In this document: piece by piece, positions 2,323 to 16,403 of the stretch
How positions within the stretch are numbered: the stretch's first letter is position 1
Layout: every line of letters begins with the position of its first letter
NCBI GenBank assembly: GCA_017882905.1
Contig: JADGOO010000141.1
Location: 1 to 34,364, forward strand
Length of the DNA stretch: 34,364 nt
Source of the DNA: Acidimicrobiia bacterium
GTDB taxonomy: Bacteria; Actinomycetota; Acidimicrobiia; IMCC26256; PALSA-610
Direction of reading: 5' to 3'
The notes under the pieces: generated by a model
What the model saw: only the letters and a program-made list of their open reading frames with translations
Database searches by the model: none
What the model was told of the DNA's origin: nothing
Position numbers and translations under genes: made by a program

Positions 2323-3207
2323 CTAGAACTGTGGGTCTTTCCACCACGGGTAAGGCGCGGGCATATCGGCCGGGACACGACCGGGGAACGCCGCGGCCCG
2401 CTTCGCAATGAAGCTCTCGACTCCCTCACGGGCGTCGGCGCTACTTCCCAACGCATCCATGAGCGCGGAGTCGAGACGGTGTGCACCCATCGGGTGCGGC
2501 TCACCGAGCATGCGCCACATGAGCGCGCGGGTGACGGAGACCGAGACGGCCGAACAGCTCGTCGCGATCTCACGGCCCAACGCATACGCCTCGTCGAGCA
2601 GCGCCTCGGGTTCGTGCACCGAGCGAACGAGCCCGCCCGACAGTGCTTCGGCCGCGTCGAACACTCGACCGGTTGCGCACCACTCCATGGCGCGGCTGAT
2701 CCCGACGACGCGGGGCAGGAACCACGACGAGCACGCTTCCGGCACGATGCCGCGCCGGGCGAACACGAACCCGAAGCGGGCGGTCGTCGACGCGAGGCGC
2801 ACGTCGAACGGGAGCGTCATCGTGATGCCCACGCCCACCGCGGGGCCGTTGATCGCCGCGATCAGAGGCTTGGTGCACTCGAAGAATCGCAGCGCCACGA
2901 TGCCACCTTCGTCGCGGTGGCGACCGTCGGCCTCGTGGACCACGCCACTGTCGGCAGCGAGGTCGCTGCCGTGATCGAAGGTGCGCCCGCCGCCGCCGAG
3001 ATCCGCTCCCGCGCAAAAGCCGCGGCCTCGGCCGGTGACCACGACGGCGCGCACGTCGGGATCGGCGTCGACGGCGTCGATCGCCGCGCACAGCTCGTGC
3101 TGCATGCGCACGGTGAACGCGTTGAGCTTGTCGGGCCGATCAAGCGTGATCGTGGCGATGTGGTCGTCGACCTCGTAGGCGATGTGCGTGAACGGTGAGC
3201 TCGGCAT
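2323..3207 (-). CDS. Enoyl-CoA hydratase/isomerase (crotonase) family protein
   Basis: 294 residues with the crotonase fold: ITLDRPDKLNAF near the N-terminus, the oxyanion-hole loop GRGFCAGADL, and a second oxyanion segment GPAVGVGITM. In the catalytic region the IVPEACSSWFLPRVVG segment supplies the Glu equivalent to E164 of rat mitochondrial hydratase, while the E144 position looks replaced (FVFARRG). Hydratase activity is therefore uncertain; isomerase or another crotonase chemistry is possible. The ATG at 3207 was chosen because the preceding codons look non-coding. The gene is divergent from the leader ORF and flavoprotein operon (98 bp between this start and 3306) and precedes the SDR gene, suggesting a short beta-oxidation-like unit. 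Confidence 0.88.
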   Translation of the reverse strand: MPSSPFTHIAYEVDDHIATITLDRPDKLNAFTVRMQHELCAAIDAVDADPDVRAVVVTGRGRGFCAGADLGGGGRTFDHGSDLAADSGVVHEADGRHRDEGGIVALRFFECTKPLIAAINGPAVGVGITMTLPFDVRLASTTARFGFVFARRGIVPEACSSWFLPRVVGISRAMEWCATGRVFDAAEALSGGLVRSVHEPEALLDEAYALGREIATSCSAVSVSVTRALMWRMLGEPHPMGAHRLDSALMDALGSSADAREGVESFIAKRAAAFPGRVPADMPAPYPWWKDPQF

Positions 3208-3276
3208 GTGCCGTGCGTAGCACACCACCGGGCGTGGCTGGCAGACTCGGGCGTACCCCACAACCAAGGAGTCGCC

Positions 3277-3309
3277 ATGCCGACCCGTTTCACAGGAGAC
3301 CGAACATGA
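3277..3309 (+). CDS. Putative 10-aa leader ORF upstream of the flavoprotein operon
   Basis: ATG at 3277 is preceded by AAGGAG (3266-3271) at 5 nt, the strongest ribosome-binding site in the region. It encodes MPTRFTGDRT and stops with TGA at 3307-3309, which overlaps the ATG of the next gene as ATGA. The flavoprotein's own AGGAG (3294-3298) lies inside the leader. This is seen directly; translational coupling is the inference. There is no Cys or other codon run that would indicate classical attenuation. Confidence 0.45.
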   Translation: MPTRFTGDRT

Positions 3310-4433
3310 CTGCAACACCCTTCCTCGACGTGCTCGAGGACCTCATCGCCGGTGTCGTCGAACCGTCCGCGGCCGACGTCGACGCCAACGGAACGTTCCC
3401 ACGCGCCGCCGTGACCGCCCTGGGCGAGGCAGGGCTGCTCGGCCTCCTGAGCTCCACCGAAGTCGGCGGGCACGGTGGCACGCTCGACGATGCCGCCCAG
3501 GTCGTACGGCGCCTCGCCGCCAGCTGCGCGAGCACCGCGATGGTCGTGTGCATGCACTACTGCGCAACGTCCGCGATCGAGCAGTTCGGTCCGATCGAGA
3601 TCCGTCGTGCGATCGCCTCCGGCCATCACCTGTCGACGCTGGCCTTCTCCGAGACGGGGTCACGCAGCCAGTTCTGGGCTCCGATGGGCACAGCCGTGAT
3701 CGACAACGACGATGTGGTCCTCAACGCACACAAGAGCTGGGTCACGTCGGCGGGCGAAGCCGACTCCTATGTCTGGACGAGCCGGCCGGCTTCCGGCACA
3801 CCCGGCGCGACGCTGTGGCTGGTGCCCGCCGACGCGCAGGGCGTGAAGGTCGCCGCACCGTTCGACGGGCTCGGGCTGCGCGGCAACGCATCGAGTCCGG
3901 TCCTCGGCACCGACGTGCGCCTGCCCGCGTCGAGCGGCCTCGGTGACGATGGCGCCGGCCTCGACATCGCGCTCGGCGTCGTGCTCCCGGTGTTCCAGAT
4001 CCTGAATGCCTCGTGCAGCCTCGGCCTCACCGACGCGGCGATCGCGAAGGTGATCGGCCATGTCACCTCGGCACGCTTCGAGCATCTCGACCAGACGCTC
4101 GCCGATCAGCCCGTCACGCGCCAGCACGTGGCGCACATGAAGAACCAGGCCGACGCGGCCGCCACGCTGGTGGCCGACGCCATCGTGGCACTCACAACCG
4201 GTCGGTCCGACGCGCCGCTTCGAATGCTCCAATCCAAGGCCGTCGCGGGCGAGACTGCCCTGGAGGTGCTCGACCGCGCCATGCGAGTAGGTGGTGGTGC
4301 CGCGTTCCGCAAGGACATCGGCATCGAGCGCCACTTTCGCGACGCGCGCGCGTCGGCTGTGATGGCACCCACGATCGATGCGCTCCAGGAGTTCATCGGC
4401 CGAGCGCTCTGCGGCATGCCGCTGTTCGGGTGA
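3306..4433 (+). CDS. Acyl-CoA dehydrogenase-like flavoprotein
   Basis: 375 residues with the acyl-CoA dehydrogenase/SfnB/DszC-like fold. It has an N-terminal helical domain, the flavin segment LAFSETGSRS, a middle beta domain, and a C-terminal helical domain with RVGGGAAFRKDIG and ERHFRDAR. Where medium-chain dehydrogenases carry the catalytic Glu in an EGT motif, this protein has MAPTIDALQ, so the usual base is missing. It could use a Glu elsewhere, or be an oxygen-using group D flavin enzyme. The start is ATG 3306 with AGGAG 7 nt upstream; earlier in-frame Met codons precede non-coding-looking sequence. It is first in a tight operon with a PhnD/SsuA-fold protein and a TusA-diiron fusion. 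A sulfur or small-organic oxidation role is inferred only from context. Confidence 0.85.
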   Translation: MTATPFLDVLEDLIAGVVEPSAADVDANGTFPRAAVTALGEAGLLGLLSSTEVGGHGGTLDDAAQVVRRLAASCASTAMVVCMHYCATSAIEQFGPIEIRRAIASGHHLSTLAFSETGSRSQFWAPMGTAVIDNDDVVLNAHKSWVTSAGEADSYVWTSRPASGTPGATLWLVPADAQGVKVAAPFDGLGLRGNASSPVLGTDVRLPASSGLGDDGAGLDIALGVVLPVFQILNASCSLGLTDAAIAKVIGHVTSARFEHLDQTLADQPVTRQHVAHMKNQADAAATLVADAIVALTTGRSDAPLRMLQSKAVAGETALEVLDRAMRVGGGAAFRKDIGIERHFRDARASAVMAPTIDALQEFIGRALCGMPLFG

Positions 4434-4444
4434 GGAGTCAGGCC

Positions 4445-5308
4445 ATGACGATCACCCGACCCTTCACTCTCGGCGCAGTCGCTTACGACCCCAAGGTGGT
4501 CACCATCTGGGAGGGGTTCAAGGACTGGTTCGCCACACGCGACTTCGCGTTCGACTACGTCCTGTACTCGAGCTATGAAGCGCAGGCTGAGGCCCACCTC
4601 GCCGGCGACGTTGATGTCACGTGGGACTCCCCGCTGGCGTGGGTGCGCACACGGCGACTCGCCGCCGCGGCAGGGCGCGAAGCGCGTGCGGTGGCGATGC
4701 GCGACACCGATCAGAACCTCACGTCGGTGGTGCTCGTACGATCCGCCAGCGACATCATCGACGTGGCGCAGCTCGCTGGTCGAGCTGTGGCCACGGGTGC
4801 GATCGACTCGCCGCAGGCCACGTTGCTGCCGCTTGCGCACCTCGCCGACCGCGGCCTCGATCCGGGTACCTCGTTCACGGTTCGTCGCTTCGATGTGATG
4901 GTCACCAAGCATGGTGATCACGTGGGCGGCGAGCGCGACGCGGTGCGAGCGCTCATGGACGGCGAAGTCGACGCGGCGTGCGTGATCGACGGCAATCAGC
5001 TGCTGTTCGCCAAGGAGGGCACGATCGCTCCCGACGCGGTGCGGGTGCTCAGCCGAACGGGCGTGTACGACCACTGCACGATGACGGTGCTCGACGACGC
5101 GCCCCGGTTCATCGTGGAGCGGTTCATCGAGCTACTGCTGTCGATGTCGTTCGACGATCCAGAGGTCCGTCCGCTGCTCGAGCTCGAAGGACTTCGTGCG
5201 TGGCGGCCGGGCCGTACGTCGGGATACGAGCTGTTGGAACAGGCCGTCGACCGCCTCGGCTTCTACGGCGCCGACGGCACGATCCTGGTGGAGGGCTACC
5301 CGCGGTGA
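4445..5308 (+). CDS. PhnD/SsuA/transferrin-fold substrate-binding-like protein, no signal peptide
   Basis: 287 residues resembling periplasmic binding proteins of the PhnD/SsuA type. An N-terminal lobe has YEAQAEAHLAGDVDVTWDSP, the typical segment that inspects a small ligand. A second lobe has VRSASDIIDVAQLAGRAVATG, then a return to the first lobe around EVDAACVIDGN. It begins MTITRPFTLG with no signal peptide or lipobox, and no permease or ATPase gene is adjacent, so a cytosolic sensor or enzyme is as likely as transport; MqnA/MqnD and Thi5 are known enzymes of this fold. The ATG at 4445 has GAGGAG 7 nt upstream and lies 11 bp after the flavoprotein stop. The stop overlaps the next GTG start as GTGA. 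Confidence 0.8.
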   Translation: MTITRPFTLGAVAYDPKVVTIWEGFKDWFATRDFAFDYVLYSSYEAQAEAHLAGDVDVTWDSPLAWVRTRRLAAAAGREARAVAMRDTDQNLTSVVLVRSASDIIDVAQLAGRAVATGAIDSPQATLLPLAHLADRGLDPGTSFTVRRFDVMVTKHGDHVGGERDAVRALMDGEVDAACVIDGNQLLFAKEGTIAPDAVRVLSRTGVYDHCTMTVLDDAPRFIVERFIELLLSMSFDDPEVRPLLELEGLRAWRPGRTSGYELLEQAVDRLGFYGADGTILVEGYPR

Positions 5309-6522
5309 CGCGCGAACGCACCACCGTCGACCTCGGAGCACTCGGGTTCGACGGTGGCGCCGACGTGCTCGTGAAGCTCGCGCTCGCCGACCGTCAAGTC
5401 GGCGACGAGATCGCGGTGCGCGGCGAGCATCCCGATCTCGCGGGTCACGTCGCCACGTGGTGCCGGCAACAGGGCCACCGGTGGCGGTCGACCGACTCGC
5501 CCTCCGACGGCGACGCGATCGGGTTCATCGAGCGGGGCTCGGCCGTGAGCGCGCGATGGATCGGCGCCGAACGCTGCGGTCACGCCGATCCGACGACCGA
5601 GGGCGCGATCGATGCTGCGCCCCCGGCTTCGTGGGGCCTCGCGGCGCGCGGCGCCGCAGTCGAACCCGGCGGCCCGACGCCGCAGTTCCGCCTTGGCGTT
5701 CGCGAGGAAGTGTGGACCGACCGCGCCGCACCGCTCTACGCGCAGGCCGCGGCGGCGCAATGGGACCCCGCGACGGCGGTCGACTGGTCGGCGCCCATCG
5801 AGCACGATCTTCGGGTCGAGGCCGCCATCGTGCAAGTGATGACGTTCCTCATCGAGAACGAGGAAGCCGCGCTCGTGGTGCCCGCCCGGTTCCTCGGCCA
5901 GATCCATCCTCACTTCCGAGAGATCCAGCAGTTCCTCGCCGTCACGGTTGCCGATGAGGCGCGCCACATCGAGGTGTTCAGCCGGCGAGCCACGATGTCG
6001 GGCCACGACCTCGCGCTGTCGACGGTAGGCGGGCGCACGTCGCTGCAGACGTTGCTCGACGAACCCGACTACGCCACGGCGAGCTTCCTGCTCTCCGTGA
6101 TGGGAGAGGGCACATTCGTCTCACTGCTCGGGTTCTTGGAACGGCACGCACCCGACTCGAGCACGCGGCGGATCGCTCATCTCACCCGCGCCGACGAAGC
6201 GCGCCACGTCGCGTTCTCCCTGGCCCACCTCGAGCGCCACGCCCATGTTGAGCCCGACCTGCGCAGCCGGCTCGCCCGCGCCGTCGAGCAGCGCCACCGC
6301 GCGCTGCAAGGCACCGCGGGCCTCAACGAAGACGTGTTCGATGCCCTCGTGGTGCTCGCCGCAGGCGACATCACACCCGAGCGCGTGCGCACCGGATGGC
6401 AACACGTGCAGGCGTTGCAGGTCGAGATGAGCGACGCGCGCCGAGCGCGCCTCGCTCGCCTCGGGTTCACGGCCGGTGAATCTGAAGCCCTGTCGTCGCT
6501 GCACACCCGCAACTTCATGTGA
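5305..6522 (+). CDS. TusA/SirA-like domain fused to a ferritin-like diiron protein
   Basis: 405 residues from GTG 5305, which overlaps the preceding stop as GTGA. Residues ~8-65 resemble a TusA/SirA fold (GDEIAVRGEHPDLAGHVATWCRQQGH) but lack the N-terminal CPxP cysteine, so persulfide transfer by the canonical residue is unlikely. Residues ~130-400 form a helical bundle with a complete diiron ligand set: Glu in IENEE (184-187), E218xxH221 in DEARH, Glu268 in GEG, and E298xxH301 in a second DEARH. This fits ferritin-like diiron oxidases or oxygenases rather than storage ferritin. The flavoprotein and binding-fold neighbours suggest one oxidative pathway. The substrate is unknown; the TusA assignment is from pattern only. 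Confidence 0.78.
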   Translation: MTRERTTVDLGALGFDGGADVLVKLALADRQVGDEIAVRGEHPDLAGHVATWCRQQGHRWRSTDSPSDGDAIGFIERGSAVSARWIGAERCGHADPTTEGAIDAAPPASWGLAARGAAVEPGGPTPQFRLGVREEVWTDRAAPLYAQAAAAQWDPATAVDWSAPIEHDLRVEAAIVQVMTFLIENEEAALVVPARFLGQIHPHFREIQQFLAVTVADEARHIEVFSRRATMSGHDLALSTVGGRTSLQTLLDEPDYATASFLLSVMGEGTFVSLLGFLERHAPDSSTRRIAHLTRADEARHVAFSLAHLERHAHVEPDLRSRLARAVEQRHRALQGTAGLNEDVFDALVVLAAGDITPERVRTGWQHVQALQVEMSDARRARLARLGFTAGESEALSSLHTRNFM

Positions 6523-11069: not shown

Positions 11070-12332
11070 ATGACTCGGAAGATCGATCGCAGGCAGCTCT
11101 CGCGTGCGGGGGCAGTGGTGCTCTGCCTGGGCCTGAGCCTCGCCGCGGCGACGGCCCTGCCCGCCGGCGCGGTCGGCGCCGGCACCAACATCGCCAATGC
11201 CAAGCAGCTCACCGCATCGGCGAGCGGTTCCTTGGCGAGCATGGTCGCCGACGACTGGTACGTGGTCTACCCAGCCACCTCGGGCGGCGTGATCCAGGTG
11301 AAGGCCACCAACACGACGGCGGGTTCGCCGACGTGCTCGGCCCTCGAAGTCGCGGTGCGCGACAGCTCGGGCACGATGCTGGCCGGCACCGGTCAGGGGC
11401 CCAACACGAGCTTCAGCTCGCCCGTGTCGAAGGTTGGTTCCGATCGCTACTTCATCGAGCTGAAGACCGCGAACTGCAACCCGCAAGCTGGACACGCCGT
11501 CACGTACTCGCTGCAGCTCCAGGCCGGAGGCGGGGGCGTCGCGCCGGCACCGGTGGCGGGTGCAGTCGCAGCCGGTGCCTCGATCGGAAGCGCATGGCCG
11601 CCGCTGCAAGGCGCCAGCTCTTACACGGGCACGCTCGCGAGCAGCCTCACCGATGCGTGGTACGTGCTCGACAAGCACTCGTCGACGAGCCCCGCGACGA
11701 TCCGCGTCGAGAACACGACCGTCGTCGGTTCGACGACGTGTGTCGCGATGTCGGTCGCGCTCCGCAACACCGACGGCAACATGGTCAGCGGCTCCGGGCT
11801 CAATGACAACACTGCTGTCACGCTCACCGTCGTCAACCCGGGCCGGTACTACCTCGAGCTCACCGATGAAGGCTGCGCCGCCGGCGGCACGACCTACCGC
11901 ATCGAGCCCGAGCCCGCCGCGGGTTGGGACCACCCGGCGCAGCTACCGACGAAGAGCATGCCCGTCGGCGCAACACTCGCCAAGGCCGGCGGCCCCCTCG
12001 CGGGCGGCGTCATCTACACGTCGTCGATCGCGAGCTCCACGACGAACGCATGGGTCGACCTCAACGACAACGGAAGCGCACCACAGGTGACCGTCAGCGT
12101 GCAGAACACGACGACCAACCTCTCGACGTGCGCCGCGCTCTCAGCGATCGTGACGAACGCGAGCGGCACCACGATCACCGGTCTCGGCCTCAACCGCAAC
12201 ACCGGCCACGAGTTCATCCTCAGCGCTCGCGGGCGGTACTACCTCCACTTCACCGACGAGAGCTGCAACCCGGGTTCGTCGCCCGCCACGAGCTTCACCG
12301 TCACGATCACACCGGCGACCGGCGTGTCATGA
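11070..12332 (+). CDS. Secreted protein with three tandem beta-domain repeats
   Basis: 420 residues from ATG 11070, preceded by GGAGG at 5 nt. A Sec signal peptide covers residues ~1-33 (KIDRRQLSR n-region, hydrophobic core, cleavage near PAGAVGA). Three repeats of ~125-135 residues follow, each with a W-Y-V/W-V-D strand, an NTT motif, a TC(S/V/A)AL or TCVAM motif, a GL-N-NT turn, GRYYLEL-type strand and a second Cys, suggesting one disulfide per repeat. The build resembles bacterial pre-peptidase C-terminal (PPC) beta-sandwich domains, but no enzyme domain is attached. No C-terminal anchor is seen. It carries element copy A upstream. Its stop overlaps the convergent cyclase stop within a TCATGA palindrome. 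Confidence 0.85.
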   Translation: MTRKIDRRQLSRAGAVVLCLGLSLAAATALPAGAVGAGTNIANAKQLTASASGSLASMVADDWYVVYPATSGGVIQVKATNTTAGSPTCSALEVAVRDSSGTMLAGTGQGPNTSFSSPVSKVGSDRYFIELKTANCNPQAGHAVTYSLQLQAGGGGVAPAPVAGAVAAGASIGSAWPPLQGASSYTGTLASSLTDAWYVLDKHSSTSPATIRVENTTVVGSTTCVAMSVALRNTDGNMVSGSGLNDNTAVTLTVVNPGRYYLELTDEGCAAGGTTYRIEPEPAAGWDHPAQLPTKSMPVGATLAKAGGPLAGGVIYTSSIASSTTNAWVDLNDNGSAPQVTVSVQNTTTNLSTCAALSAIVTNASGTTITGLGLNRNTGHEFILSARGRYYLHFTDESCNPGSSPATSFTVTITPATGVS

Positions 12333-13463
12333 GGCGGCAGCGCGGTGCACGGCAACGAGCTGCACGTCGTCGCGAAATCCCTTGAGCGGGTACGCGCGCG
12401 GGGCGCCGCACTGCACGGCCGGCTGGTCGTGGAGGGCGGCGCCCGTTGCCGTGTCGGCCAACACCGTCGAGAGCTCCGCCGACTTGACCGCGCGTGCCGC
12501 GAGGTTCACCACCGGGCCGGAGAAGTCGCCGTCGCGGGCCAGCACCTCGCCGGTAGCGATCCCGACGCGCACTGGTGGCAGGACGGGATGCGCGGCGAAG
12601 GCGTCGACGAGCGCCAGTGCGATATCGACCGCCGCGGCCGGTTCGTTGGCCACGAACATCACCTCGTCGCCGATGAGCTTCACGACCCGACCGTCGCGTG
12701 CCACGACGATCTCGGCCGCGGTGGCCTCGAATGCCGAGAGCGCTTGCCCGAGCTCACCGAGCTCGAGCTGTTGTGCCCACGCGGTCGAGTCGGCGAGATC
12801 CGCGAAGCCGACGCTGCGTTGCACGAGGTCGACGCCACCGACGATGCCGATTGCGCCCCGTGGGCGGAAGGCTCGTTCCATGTGGTGGCGCAAGAGCGTG
12901 TCGAAGCCCCGGGTCACGCCATCGAGCAACGCCATCGACTCCGCGTTGGCACGAGCCAGCGCGAGGCCCGATGCATCTTCTTCCATGGCGCGCGACGCGA
13001 CGTTCACGATGAACGCGCTCGCCGACGCATCGGCCACTCGCGCCGCGGCCGCGGCGAGCACCCGCAGGAGCTGGATCGCGACGGCTTCGTCGAACAGCTC
13101 GATCGCGGCACGCAAGATCTCGATGATCTCGACGTCCCGACTCGAGAACGTACGAGCGTGAGGGTCGATCTCGGGGTCGGGGAAGCCGGCCGCGCGCCAG
13201 GCCCGGGCCACCAAGGCGCGTGACACACCGGTGGCCGCGGCCACGTCGTCGATCGTCATGAGCTCCCGTGCGCCCCACAGCGCCGTTCGCGACGCCACGA
13301 GCGGCAGATCGTCGGGCGGGGCGGCGACCAGCTCGTCGAGCGTCACGCCGATCTCGATCAGGTACTCGAGCAGCGCGAGGCGCTCGCTCGCGCCCGCGCT
13401 GCCGGGTTCGTAGAGGCCGGCCGCTTCGAGGTCGTCGGGACCCAACCGCGGCACGCGTTCCAC
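12327..13463 (-). CDS. Class III adenylate/guanylate cyclase with Rv1264-like regulatory domain
   Basis: 378 residues from GTG 13463. The N-terminal ~190 residues match the all-helical autoinhibitory domain of mycobacterial Rv1264-type cyclases (ALLEYLIEIGVTLDELVAA, then TIDDVAAATGVSRALVARAWRAAG, which looks MerR/HTH-like). In Rv1264 this domain senses pH. The C-terminal catalytic domain has metal-binding Asp in VGFADLADST, substrate Lys and second Asp in KLIGDEVMF, and the transition-state Asn and Arg in VNLAARA. It is therefore expected to be an active homodimeric cyclase making cAMP; no membrane segment is present. It converges on the secreted-repeat gene with a 6-bp overlap. Confidence 0.88.
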   Translation of the reverse strand: MERVPRLGPDDLEAAGLYEPGSAGASERLALLEYLIEIGVTLDELVAAPPDDLPLVASRTALWGARELMTIDDVAAATGVSRALVARAWRAAGFPDPEIDPHARTFSSRDVEIIEILRAAIELFDEAVAIQLLRVLAAAAARVADASASAFIVNVASRAMEEDASGLALARANAESMALLDGVTRGFDTLLRHHMERAFRPRGAIGIVGGVDLVQRSVGFADLADSTAWAQQLELGELGQALSAFEATAAEIVVARDGRVVKLIGDEVMFVANEPAAAVDIALALVDAFAAHPVLPPVRVGIATGEVLARDGDFSGPVVNLAARAVKSAELSTVLADTATGAALHDQPAVQCGAPRAYPLKGFRDDVQLVAVHRAAAS

Positions 13464-13512: not shown

Positions 13513-14664
13513 CTACTGGCGGGTGGCGCGGGCCATGTACAGCCAGAACGCGAACGGCGCGCCGGCGTCTTTCATGGCGCGCCGGGCCGCGAGCAGCGTG
13601 CGTCCGCACTCGGTCTGCTCGTAGAACCACGCTTCGGCGCCACCCGCGTGAGCCGGCGCGCTCGCGAGCTCGATCGCGGCTTCCTCGTAGAACGTGCGCA
13701 CGTCGTGCGCCACACTGATCGGATCTCCGGGCAGGCCGGCTTCCGTCCAGGGTGTGCCCGTGGCGATGCGTACGAGCGCACCAACGGCGTGCGGGATGCC
13801 CTGGCCGTCGGTCGTGCGACCGACCGAAGTGCCGCGCTTGGCGCGGCTCCGCTCGTAGGCCGGCAGCAGCGCGGTGGCTTCGTCGACGGCCGCCGGAAGG
13901 TTCGGGTCGAATCGCGGCGGCAGGTCGCACGCGATGGGCTGCGTGTCGTCGGTCTCGATCAGGTCGGGATAGGTCTCGAGCACCGGGCCGCTCGGCGCGT
14001 CGAGCAGCGCGAACGCACGCCGCAGTACGGCGTGCTGATAGTCGGCGTCGCCCGGAACGCCCAGCGGACGCCCGAGCGGGAACTCGCAGTACAGCGCGCG
14101 CGGCGGGCGCATTTTCTCGGCAACGGCCAGCACCGACACCAGGGCGACGGTGGCGATGCCGTTGGCTTCGAGCACATGCGCGAGCACACACACGGTGCGC
14201 GTGCAGAGCGGTCAGACGGGCGTGAGCAAGGCGATGTCCACACCGTCGCCGCGCAACAGCTCGGCCGCCGCGGGCCCGGAATCGAGCCGCACGCGTGAGA
14301 CGGTGTCTTCCTGGTTGCCGGCGAACGCGAGGTGGCGGGGAGCGACCCGTCCGAGCTCGCCGCGCGCCGCCAGCTCCGAGAGGCGGTCGACGGGGAACAC
14401 CACGTTGGGGTCGAGCGCGAAGCCGGCGCGATCGAAGTTCGGGCTCCAATGGCCGAGCATGAGATCGCGAGCACCGGTCGGGATCACGCGAAAGCCCGTG
14501 TCAGTGCCCGTGAAGCCGGAGTCGTGGGCGGTGTGGATCGCCGCGGTGGTCACGATCGCGACGGTTGCGTCGGCCAGCGCGGGCGGTACCTGCCATGCGG
14601 TCGAGTCGAACTCCGGCGCCGGCAACCCCGACGCGTAGGCGCGCATCTCCACATCGCCACTCAT
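13513..14664 (-). CDS. GrdB-family selenoprotein (glycine/sarcosine/betaine reductase B-like), TGA read as Sec
   Basis: Two same-frame ORFs are separated only by TGA at 14212-14214. Read through, they give 383 residues with Sec151 in TPV-U-PLCTRTV, matching the U-x-x-C-T-R segment of GrdB. Upstream, DTGFRVIP, HWSPNFDRAGFALDPNVVFPVDRL and RGELG are GrdB/PrdB-like. Downstream, ANGIATVALVSV and CEFPLGRPLGVPGD continue the family seamlessly, which a true stop would not explain. A strong hairpin starts 7 nt after the TGA. Start ATG 14664 is preferred; ATG 14646 is possible. It is 41 bp downstream of the phosphatase gene on the same strand. Aerobic members have unknown substrates; U-x-x-C implies redox or thiol chemistry. 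Sec machinery is not in the window. Confidence 0.85.
14184..14204 (-). promoter_or_regulatory. SECIS-like hairpin just after the recoded TGA
   Basis: In the minus-strand mRNA an 8-bp stem (GCACGCGC with GUGUGUGC, two G-U pairs) closes a 5-nt loop ACCGU. It starts 7 nt after the UGA, placing the apical loop about 16-20 nt downstream, inside the window known for bacterial SelB-binding SECIS elements. The pairing was worked out by hand; SelB recognition is inferred. Confidence 0.55.
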
Positions 14665-14705
14665 GGCCGTGCACGGTATCCCGCTCGCCGACGACGACCG
14701 TCGGG

Positions 14706-16343
14706 TCAGTGGATGCGCTTCACCACGAGGGCGACGTCGTCGCGCGGTGTGTCGTCGACGAGCTCGGCGATGAGACGGTCGGCGATGCCCTGGACCGAGT
14801 CGGCGCGCCAGCGCATCGCGCACTCCGCCAGGCGCAGCAAGCCTCGATCGAGCACTTCACCCGGACGTTCGACGAGGCCGTCGGTGTACAGCACGAGGAG
14901 ATCGCCGGGGCGCACGTCGACGCGGGCTTCACCGCGCATCGGGTCGCCTACCGCCAGCGGTGTTGCCAACGCCTGGTCGAGCCATTGCGCAGCGTTGCCG
15001 CGCAGGAGCAACGGCGGTGGATGGCCGGCGTTCGAGTACGTGATCGTCTGTTCGACGAGATCGACGATCACGCACACGACGGTCGCGCAGAACGCGGCGA
15101 GCGTCGTGGTCGCGAACCGGTGCAGCGAGTTGATCACCTCGGCCGGACCGCGCCCCTCACCGAGCAAGGCCCGGCTCACGTTGCGCAACGCACCCATCGC
15201 GGTCGCCGCTTCGAGACCGTGACCGACGCAGTCGCCCACGATGAGGGCGCGCCGCCCCTTGCCGAGATCGAGCACCTCGTACCAGTCGCCTCCAACGGTG
15301 AGGTCACTCGCCTTGGGCAGGTAGCGCGCGGCGACGGTGGGCAGGTCCGACGCCAAGTCGAGCATCGCGTGCTGCAACGTGTCGCTGATGCGCCGGAGCG
15401 CACCGAGCTCGGCGGACCGCAGGAGCGCGGCGGTCATCGAGGCCGCGATCGTCTGGCGCAGGAGCTGCACAAACCGCTGGTACTCGTCGTCGAATCCGCT
15501 GTTGGGGTTGAGCGCGACCACGACGACGGTCTGCAGGTTCGGGTCATCGATCCCGAACGCAACTCGCTGCACCGGAAGCCCCGACGTCCACTCGCTGTCG
15601 AGCACCAATGGAGTCGGCGCAGTGGCCGCCCGGCGGAGCAGCTCCTGGTCGGCCGGCTGCGTCAAGGGGCGTTGCGGGCTCGCGATGCGTACGACGCTCT
15701 CGCCGACCACGAGGTTGATCTCGACGGCCGGTACTTCGGCGCAGCCCCGCAGCGCGTTGACGGTGGCCCGGGCAACCGAGTCGATCGTGGTCGCGCTCAC
15801 GAGCGCGCTCCCCAGCGCACTGATAGCGGCGAGCCGGCGCCGATCGACAACTTGCGCCGTGGTCTCCGTGGCGACCACGAGCAAGCCGGCGACCACGTCG
15901 CTGTCGTCGTGGATCGGGCTGTACGAGTAGGTGAAGAAGGCCTCTTCTTGGTAGCCGTTGCGGTTGATGAGGAGTCGCTGGTCGGCGTTCCAGATTGCCT
16001 CGCCGCCGTACACGCTCGCGAACAGCGGCCCGATCTCGGGCCAGATCTCGGCCCATGTGTCGCGGGCGCTGCTGCCCATGGCGTCGGGATGCTTGCCGGT
16101 GCCGAGGATCGGACGGAAGGCGTCGTTGTAGAGCTGTGTGTACTCGGGACCCCAGGCCAACATCATCGGGAACTCGGAGCTGAGCACCACCTGCACGAGG
16201 AGTCGCAGCTGGTCGGGCCACGTCTCGACTGGACCGAGCGGTGTGGCGTCCCAGGGATGGGCCAAGAGCGCGCGCGCCACTGGTCCGTGAGTCGCGCGAT
16301 CCACCAGCGGCCGCGCGTGATTCGACGTTTCGTCTGCGAGCAT
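14706..16343 (-). CDS. PAS-GAF-SpoIIE PP2C-type serine phosphatase
   Basis: About 545 residues. The N-terminus is PAS-like (PMMLAWGPEYTQLYNDAFRPILG, later RNGYQEEAFFTYSYSPI, a PAC-type segment). A GAF-like domain covers ~170-315. The C-terminal PP2C/SpoIIE phosphatase has DWYEVLDLG, IVGDCVGHGLEAA with the metal Asp, YSNAGHPPPLLL, LLVLYTDGLVE, and a final DDVALVV. All acidic metal ligands appear present. This build (as in RsbU/RsbP-like enzymes) usually dephosphorylates an anti-sigma-factor antagonist or answers a stress or redox signal; no such partner is adjacent. ATG 16343 is preferred over TTG 16349. The SpoIIE-type gene precedes the selenoprotein gene on the same strand. Confidence 0.9.
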   Translation of the reverse strand: MLADETSNHARPLVDRATHGPVARALLAHPWDATPLGPVETWPDQLRLLVQVVLSSEFPMMLAWGPEYTQLYNDAFRPILGTGKHPDAMGSSARDTWAEIWPEIGPLFASVYGGEAIWNADQRLLINRNGYQEEAFFTYSYSPIHDDSDVVAGLLVVATETTAQVVDRRRLAAISALGSALVSATTIDSVARATVNALRGCAEVPAVEINLVVGESVVRIASPQRPLTQPADQELLRRAATAPTPLVLDSEWTSGLPVQRVAFGIDDPNLQTVVVVALNPNSGFDDEYQRFVQLLRQTIAASMTAALLRSAELGALRRISDTLQHAMLDLASDLPTVAARYLPKASDLTVGGDWYEVLDLGKGRRALIVGDCVGHGLEAATAMGALRNVSRALLGEGRGPAEVINSLHRFATTTLAAFCATVVCVIVDLVEQTITYSNAGHPPPLLLRGNAAQWLDQALATPLAVGDPMRGEARVDVRPGDLLVLYTDGLVERPGEVLDRGLLRLAECAMRWRADSVQGIADRLIAELVDDTPRDDVALVVKRIH

Positions 16344-16403
16344 CTCCAACGGTGCAACACTAGATGTGCCGTCGAAGCGACGAGAAGGGCCGCTCGCGCG
16401 CGG

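Follow-up and report, generated by a model that had tools for sequence, protein, structure and literature searches.

The window, by which we mean the whole 34,364-nucleotide stretch of DNA analyzed here, carries a predicted selenoprotein gene on its minus strand at positions 13513 to 14664. When TGA is translated as selenocysteine (Sec, U), the frame runs from an ATG at 14664 to a TAG ending at 13513 and comprises 383 codons plus the stop; full-length homologues read through the same site. Its single internal TGA is codon 151 of the 383 (14212–14214, minus strand), which lies in the residue context TPV-U-PLCTRTV and would supply U151 of a UxxC motif, UPLC. Re-translation of the frame agreed with the first-pass annotation on the strand, both ends, and the lone TGA. 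The prediction that standard gene calling would split this gene was also borne out, as the table 11 listing breaks the frame into two open reading frames, 14212–14823 and 13513–14193, and the proposed actinobacterial origin is supported by the relatives of the gene, which belong to Acidimicrobiia (Actinomycetota). Both flanking genes are on the same strand. Upstream, 41 nt away, lies a SpoIIE-type phosphatase gene (14706–16349, minus strand; Pfam PF07228, E = 1.4e-40) that was matched in 1 of 80 loci, and downstream, at a distance of 49 nt, lies a gene for adenylate cyclase regulatory and catalytic-like domains (12327–13463, minus strand; PF16701 and PF00211) that was matched in 0 of 80; across these 80 loci no conserved gene neighbor was found. 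Genes for crotonase, acyl-CoA dehydrogenase, SDR, and sulfatase recur near the loci at varying places, which may reflect no more than the overall gene content of such genomes. Elsewhere in the window (3195–6519), an acyl-CoA dehydrogenase gene is followed by one whose product weakly matches the N-oxygenase AurF (E = 1.5e-4, below the cut-off).

By profile comparison, the encoded protein is a distant relative of PrdB and is neither PrdB nor GrdB. The closest named family, TIGR04483 (PrdB), matched residues 26 to 220 (14005–14589, minus strand) with an E value of 1.4e-32 and 113.1 bits, versus an equivalog cut-off of 300 bits; the annotated PrdB of Peptoclostridium acidaminophilum scores 310 bits against the same model, and the model also matched 52 of 52 members of a diverse alignment of the family. 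GrdB-type models gave weaker matches than PrdB, with PF07355 reaching 21.6 bits versus a gathering score of 22 and covering only positions 201 to 345 of its 347. The first-pass annotation had assigned the protein to the GrdB family; its alignment of the U-x-x-C position and a weak homology stood, but the nearest named family is PrdB, and the GrdB match is confined to the C-terminal half of that profile. Since every score fell below the curated cut-offs and only half of the GrdB profile was covered, the protein is best described as related to PrdB but carrying a further domain. AlphaFold2 modeled the whole protein with a pLDDT of 93.5 and a pTM of 0.90, U151 being represented as Cys, and placed U151 and C154 together in a roughly 235-residue alpha/beta domain that takes in the PrdB-like region. 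The remaining C-terminal part (residues 246–383; 13516–13929, minus strand) was predicted to be an all-helical domain of about 140 residues, with a pLDDT of 90.9 when modeled alone; it is conserved in the long family and absent from PrdB and GrdB. No Pfam family matched this C-terminal domain, and PDB sequence searches with the single protein and with a profile returned nothing. Foldseek and VIA-align gave no trustworthy match for either the whole model or the C-terminal domain, a result that does not in itself show the fold to be new.

Whether the gene could encode a genuine subunit of D-proline (or glycine/betaine) reductase, acting with a pyruvoyl PrdA/GrdE partner, must be considered, as such a role is compatible with Sec coding, PrdB is the best named family, and the Sec site is aligned. 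In both PrdB and GrdB systems, a pyruvoyl-bearing partner activates the amino acid. PF09338, the family of this partner (PrdA/GrdE type), was found in 0 of 18 genomes, in a search run without a positive control, and the failure to find a pyruvoyl partner makes an amino-acid reductase role unlikely. The PrdB score, far under the level reached by the annotated protein, also argues against such a subunit, as do the lack of a conserved neighbor and the extra C-terminal domain, and we therefore regard this assignment as improbable. Given that the long form lacks some of the features by which D-proline reductase is defined, naming it PrdB would attach the wrong metabolism to it.

The in-frame TGA is conserved far beyond this genome. 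Homologues, more than 100 in all, were collected from a one-genome-per-species collection, a 396-genome phylum sample, and 60 near relatives. Among the 110 that align across codon 151, the column holds TGA in 109 and TGC (Cys) in one (L026, genome G025), and the TGA of P. acidaminophilum PrdB, a protein that passes the PrdB cut-off, falls in the same column, where Roseomonas and Haematobacter proteins have Cys. TGA is also present in homologues from the single-contig genomes G031 and G113. In the long-family alignment, P149, P152, and C154 are invariant near the site, and V150, R156, and T157 are almost invariant. Homologues reading through the same codon occur in other Acidimicrobiia and in metagenome-assembled genomes (MAGs) labeled Chloroflexota and Acidobacteria, and the existence of these full-length proteins elsewhere excludes chance. 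They continue for about 231 to 248 residues past the Sec site and mostly terminate with TGA; UGA is thus still an ordinary stop in these genomes.

Two further relatives, L180 (G450) and L181 (G448), were first expected to be Cys forms because their frames are open, but the aligned codons, GCT and GCG, specify Ala. The in-frame Cys and Ala homologues are each a single open reading frame. A quick tree built on the PrdB-like domain places the Ala pair inside the Sec forms on a long branch, indicating that Sec was probably lost in this pair; the apparent Sec-to-Ala change probably left one redox residue of two, as Cys154 is retained. The same tree set the long forms apart from short actinobacterial forms with a support of only 67. 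This short PrdB-like family (L027–L047 and others; about 220 to 250 residues) is found widely among other Actinomycetota, and nearly all of its members carry TGA at the equivalent site. Presence of the long form in MAGs labeled Chloroflexota (L108, L115, L116, L120, and L124) and Acidobacteria (L101) points to gene transfer or mis-binning. Two other MAGs (L083 and L087) are labeled Bifidobacterium breve and Ferrithrix thermotolerans, respectively, yet their genes closely resemble those of uncultured Acidimicrobiia; at least the first label looks wrong.

Shortly after the TGA, the family conserves a putative bacterial SECIS hairpin (14184–14200, minus strand). Numbering from the T of TGA as base 1, bases 15 to 20 pair with 26 to 31 to form a 6-bp stem around a 5-nt loop (bases 21–25) that begins 17 nt after the TGA, has G in its second position, and reads CGUGU here, CGUGW being the usual form in the family. 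Across 92 distinct sequences, four stem pairs are invariant, pair 17-29 alternates between G-U and G-C, and at pair 18-28 the counts are 54 C-G, 37 U-A, and one C-A mismatch. Base 18 occupies the third position in the codon of an invariant Arg and base 28 the first position in a codon for Val, Ala, or Thr, such that CGU Arg is paired with Thr (A28) and CGC Arg with Val or Ala (G28); the remaining Arg codons in these genes do not divide in this manner. On the tree, each of the two sites changed at least eight times, and both changed together in five independent pairs on well-supported branches; a sign test on these five pairs alone gave a p value of 0.0625. Third bases are also frozen across the element, with entropies of 0 to 0.09 bits at codons +4 and +6 to +9 and approximately 0.7 to 1.9 bits at nearby codons of the 92 sequences. 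Neither the Cys homologue, with 4 of 6 pairs disrupted, nor either Ala homologue, with 3 of 6 disrupted, retains the hairpin. A synonymous Arg base linked in this way to a Val/Thr codon makes a clear example of selection maintaining a SECIS within a coding region.

A published bacterial SECIS model allows a loop of 3 to 9 nt, a stem of 4 to 16 bp, a G at loop position 1 or 2, and a distance of 16 to 37 nt (PMC13188914), and the family hairpin agrees with it in loop size, stem length, G position, and 17-nt spacing. The first-pass annotation had described a strong hairpin starting 7 nt after the TGA. Such a structure exists, with 9 bp and a 3-nt loop (bases 11–19 with 23–31; 14184–14204, minus strand), and folding energies and pair probabilities favor it in the window sequence (−12.9 versus −8.1 kcal/mol for the 6-bp register), but it is the different, 6-bp register that is kept family-wide. 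In single-sequence folding, the 60-nt stretch was no more stable than its shuffles (z = −0.03), and an Rfam scan of the window gave no match; support for the predicted hairpin comes only from comparison across homologues, not from single-sequence folding.

These features bear directly on whether two separate proteins are made, the first stopping at the TGA and the second restarting downstream, as the pair of table 11 frames would have it. Alignment is continuous across the site with conserved P149, V150, P152, and C154 on either side, the Cys and Ala homologues are undivided, and synonymous positions are frozen directly after the TGA as a SECIS requires, all of which render a stop and restart very unlikely.

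The genome also encodes most of the expected Sec machinery. The selA, selB, and selD genes, which the first-pass annotation had named as a check on its proposal, were all found by profile search above curated cut-offs: selA at 446 bits, selB adjoining it on contig C156 at 314.8 bits (342.5 with the neighboring piece), and selD on contig C29 at 416 bits. The fourth gene named, selC (tRNA-Sec), was not found in the 259-contig assembly. The best RF01852 matches there were ordinary tRNAs below the cut-off, mostly tRNA-Ser; a pattern search and a search with the tRNA of a relative found none in this assembly, and none was found in 20 further contigs. However, contig C156 is collinear to its very end with the selAB regions of three relatives (G396, G404, and G401), whose tRNA-Sec genes lie 8 to 12 kb further on. 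The missing gene is thus best explained by an assembly gap, its absence is weak counter-evidence, and we infer that this strain does possess a tRNA-Sec located past the edge of the selAB contig. RF01852 scored above the cut-off in 15 of 16 other homologue-bearing genomes, with the anticodon UCA where it was read. In a survey of 61 relatives, own genome included, 14 of the 16 carriers of a full-length TGA gene had selA and 13 of the 16 had tRNA-Sec. Neither selA nor tRNA-Sec was found in the two Ala carriers, MAGs that are only 80 and 64% complete. The genome with the Cys form (G025) has two different tRNA-Sec genes 9 kb apart (contig C96, 70099–70187 and 79295–79385).

Lack of a canonical tRNA-Sec in the assembly might instead suggest that a variant tRNA reads UGA as Cys or Trp and that no Sec is involved. 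The presence of selA, selB, and selD, the use of TGA as the terminal stop in most homologues, and the standard, UCA-bearing tRNA-Sec of relatives all speak against this, and a general reassignment needs no site-specific hairpin; decoding by a variant tRNA is accordingly given very little weight. The MAG origin of the data, the Cys homologue, and the missing tRNA-Sec could be cited in favor of a true Cys (TGC/TGT) gene in which the TGA arose through faulty sequencing or assembly or through a nonsense mutation confined to one lineage. This reading has a negligible chance of being correct, having already been refuted by the same TGA in more than 100 homologues from independent assemblies, including the two single-contig genomes, and by the covarying SECIS.

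Taken together, the in-frame TGA almost certainly encodes Sec, and the gene a single PrdB-related predicted selenoprotein of 383 residues with SECIS-directed insertion. Comparative analysis establishes the Sec codon, the SECIS, SelA, SelB, and SelD, and the homology, and the Sec assignment of the first-pass annotation is upheld by TGA conservation, the existence of Cys homologues, covariation within the SECIS, and the occurrence of selA, selB, and selD in the same genome. Of the outcomes that the annotation listed as refuting it, none was encountered apart from the missing tRNA-Sec. In the proposed pathway, SelA and SelD would convert Ser-tRNA and selenophosphate into Sec-tRNA, the hairpin just 3′ of UGA codon 151 would recruit SelB carrying Sec-tRNA-Sec, and Sec would be inserted at this codon in place of termination to yield the full product.

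What the protein does can be proposed by analogy. Established knowledge of UxxC selenoproteins makes a selenol/thiol reductase coupled to a dithiol system the most likely role. The selenolate of Sec151 would attack an electrophilic substrate, Cys154 would resolve the intermediate by forming a selenosulfide, and the Sec151/Cys154 pair would then be re-reduced by a dithiol system of the cell; we consider this redox chemistry of Sec151-x-x-Cys154 reasonably probable. A GrdB-like protein has been proposed to reduce monofluoroacetate in Synergistota (PMC10838667), which suggests that the GrdB/PrdB type of family may be adaptable to substrates other than amino acids. More tentatively, the long forms may constitute a widespread group of two-domain Sec-x-x-Cys enzymes in Acidimicrobiia and their neighbors, with a helical domain unlike any known fold and no pyruvoyl partner, that act on a non-Stickland substrate, possibly under oxic conditions.

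Ordinary annotation misses or cuts selenoproteins, and here it would show a family present in dozens of Acidimicrobiia and in related MAGs as a pair of fragments. A limited search of the open-access literature found no description of the long two-domain form and, for selenoproteins in Acidimicrobiia, only incidental mentions. A redox selenoprotein that is common in mostly uncultured environmental actinobacteria and carries a second domain without detected kin is a concrete target for biochemistry, and its presence points to Sec use in these actinobacteria beyond formate dehydrogenase and Stickland enzymes.

Several known systems resemble this protein in part. The Roseomonas and Haematobacter proteins annotated as "glycine/sarcosine/betaine reductase selenoprotein B family protein" share the PrdB-like domain and have CxxC at the aligned site, but they use Cys rather than Sec, are about 305 residues long, and lack an equivalent C-terminal domain. 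In Roseomonas haemaphysalidis, the Cys homologue (L253, 4725–7110) adjoins a gene annotated as the protein adenylyltransferase SelO. GrdB, GrdF, and GrdH (PF07355 and TIGR01918) share the U-x-x-C position and a weak homology over the C-terminal half of the profile, whereas about 200 N-terminal residues of GrdB are missing here, all curated cut-offs are missed, and no partner was found. PrdB (TIGR04483) is the closest of these systems, being homologous over residues 26 to 220 with an aligned Sec followed by xxC and an in-frame TGA that is read through; it differs in having about 240 residues rather than 383, while the protein described here has the helical C-terminal domain, a score below the cut-off, and no detected pyruvoyl partner. 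The TGA-bearing prdB of P. acidaminophilum (L252, 5836–6549 on NZ_CP007453.1, plasmid EAL2_808p) itself stands alone, with no prdA within the 12.5 kb around it. UxxC proteins of the PrdB family also occur in surface-ocean microbes: "proline reductase PrdB" selenoproteins rank third in abundance among the known families of the Sargasso Sea set (PMC1088965), and the GOS data contain 235 Sec and 110 Cys members (PMC2398784); neither a long two-domain form nor evidence for D-proline reductase activity was seen to be reported for these marine proteins. Ocean metagenomes have yielded selenoproteins filed under PrdB since 2005, and the kind is therefore an established one; what sequence comparison adds here is that Acidimicrobiia have a long, two-domain form and that this form is distant from D-proline reductase.
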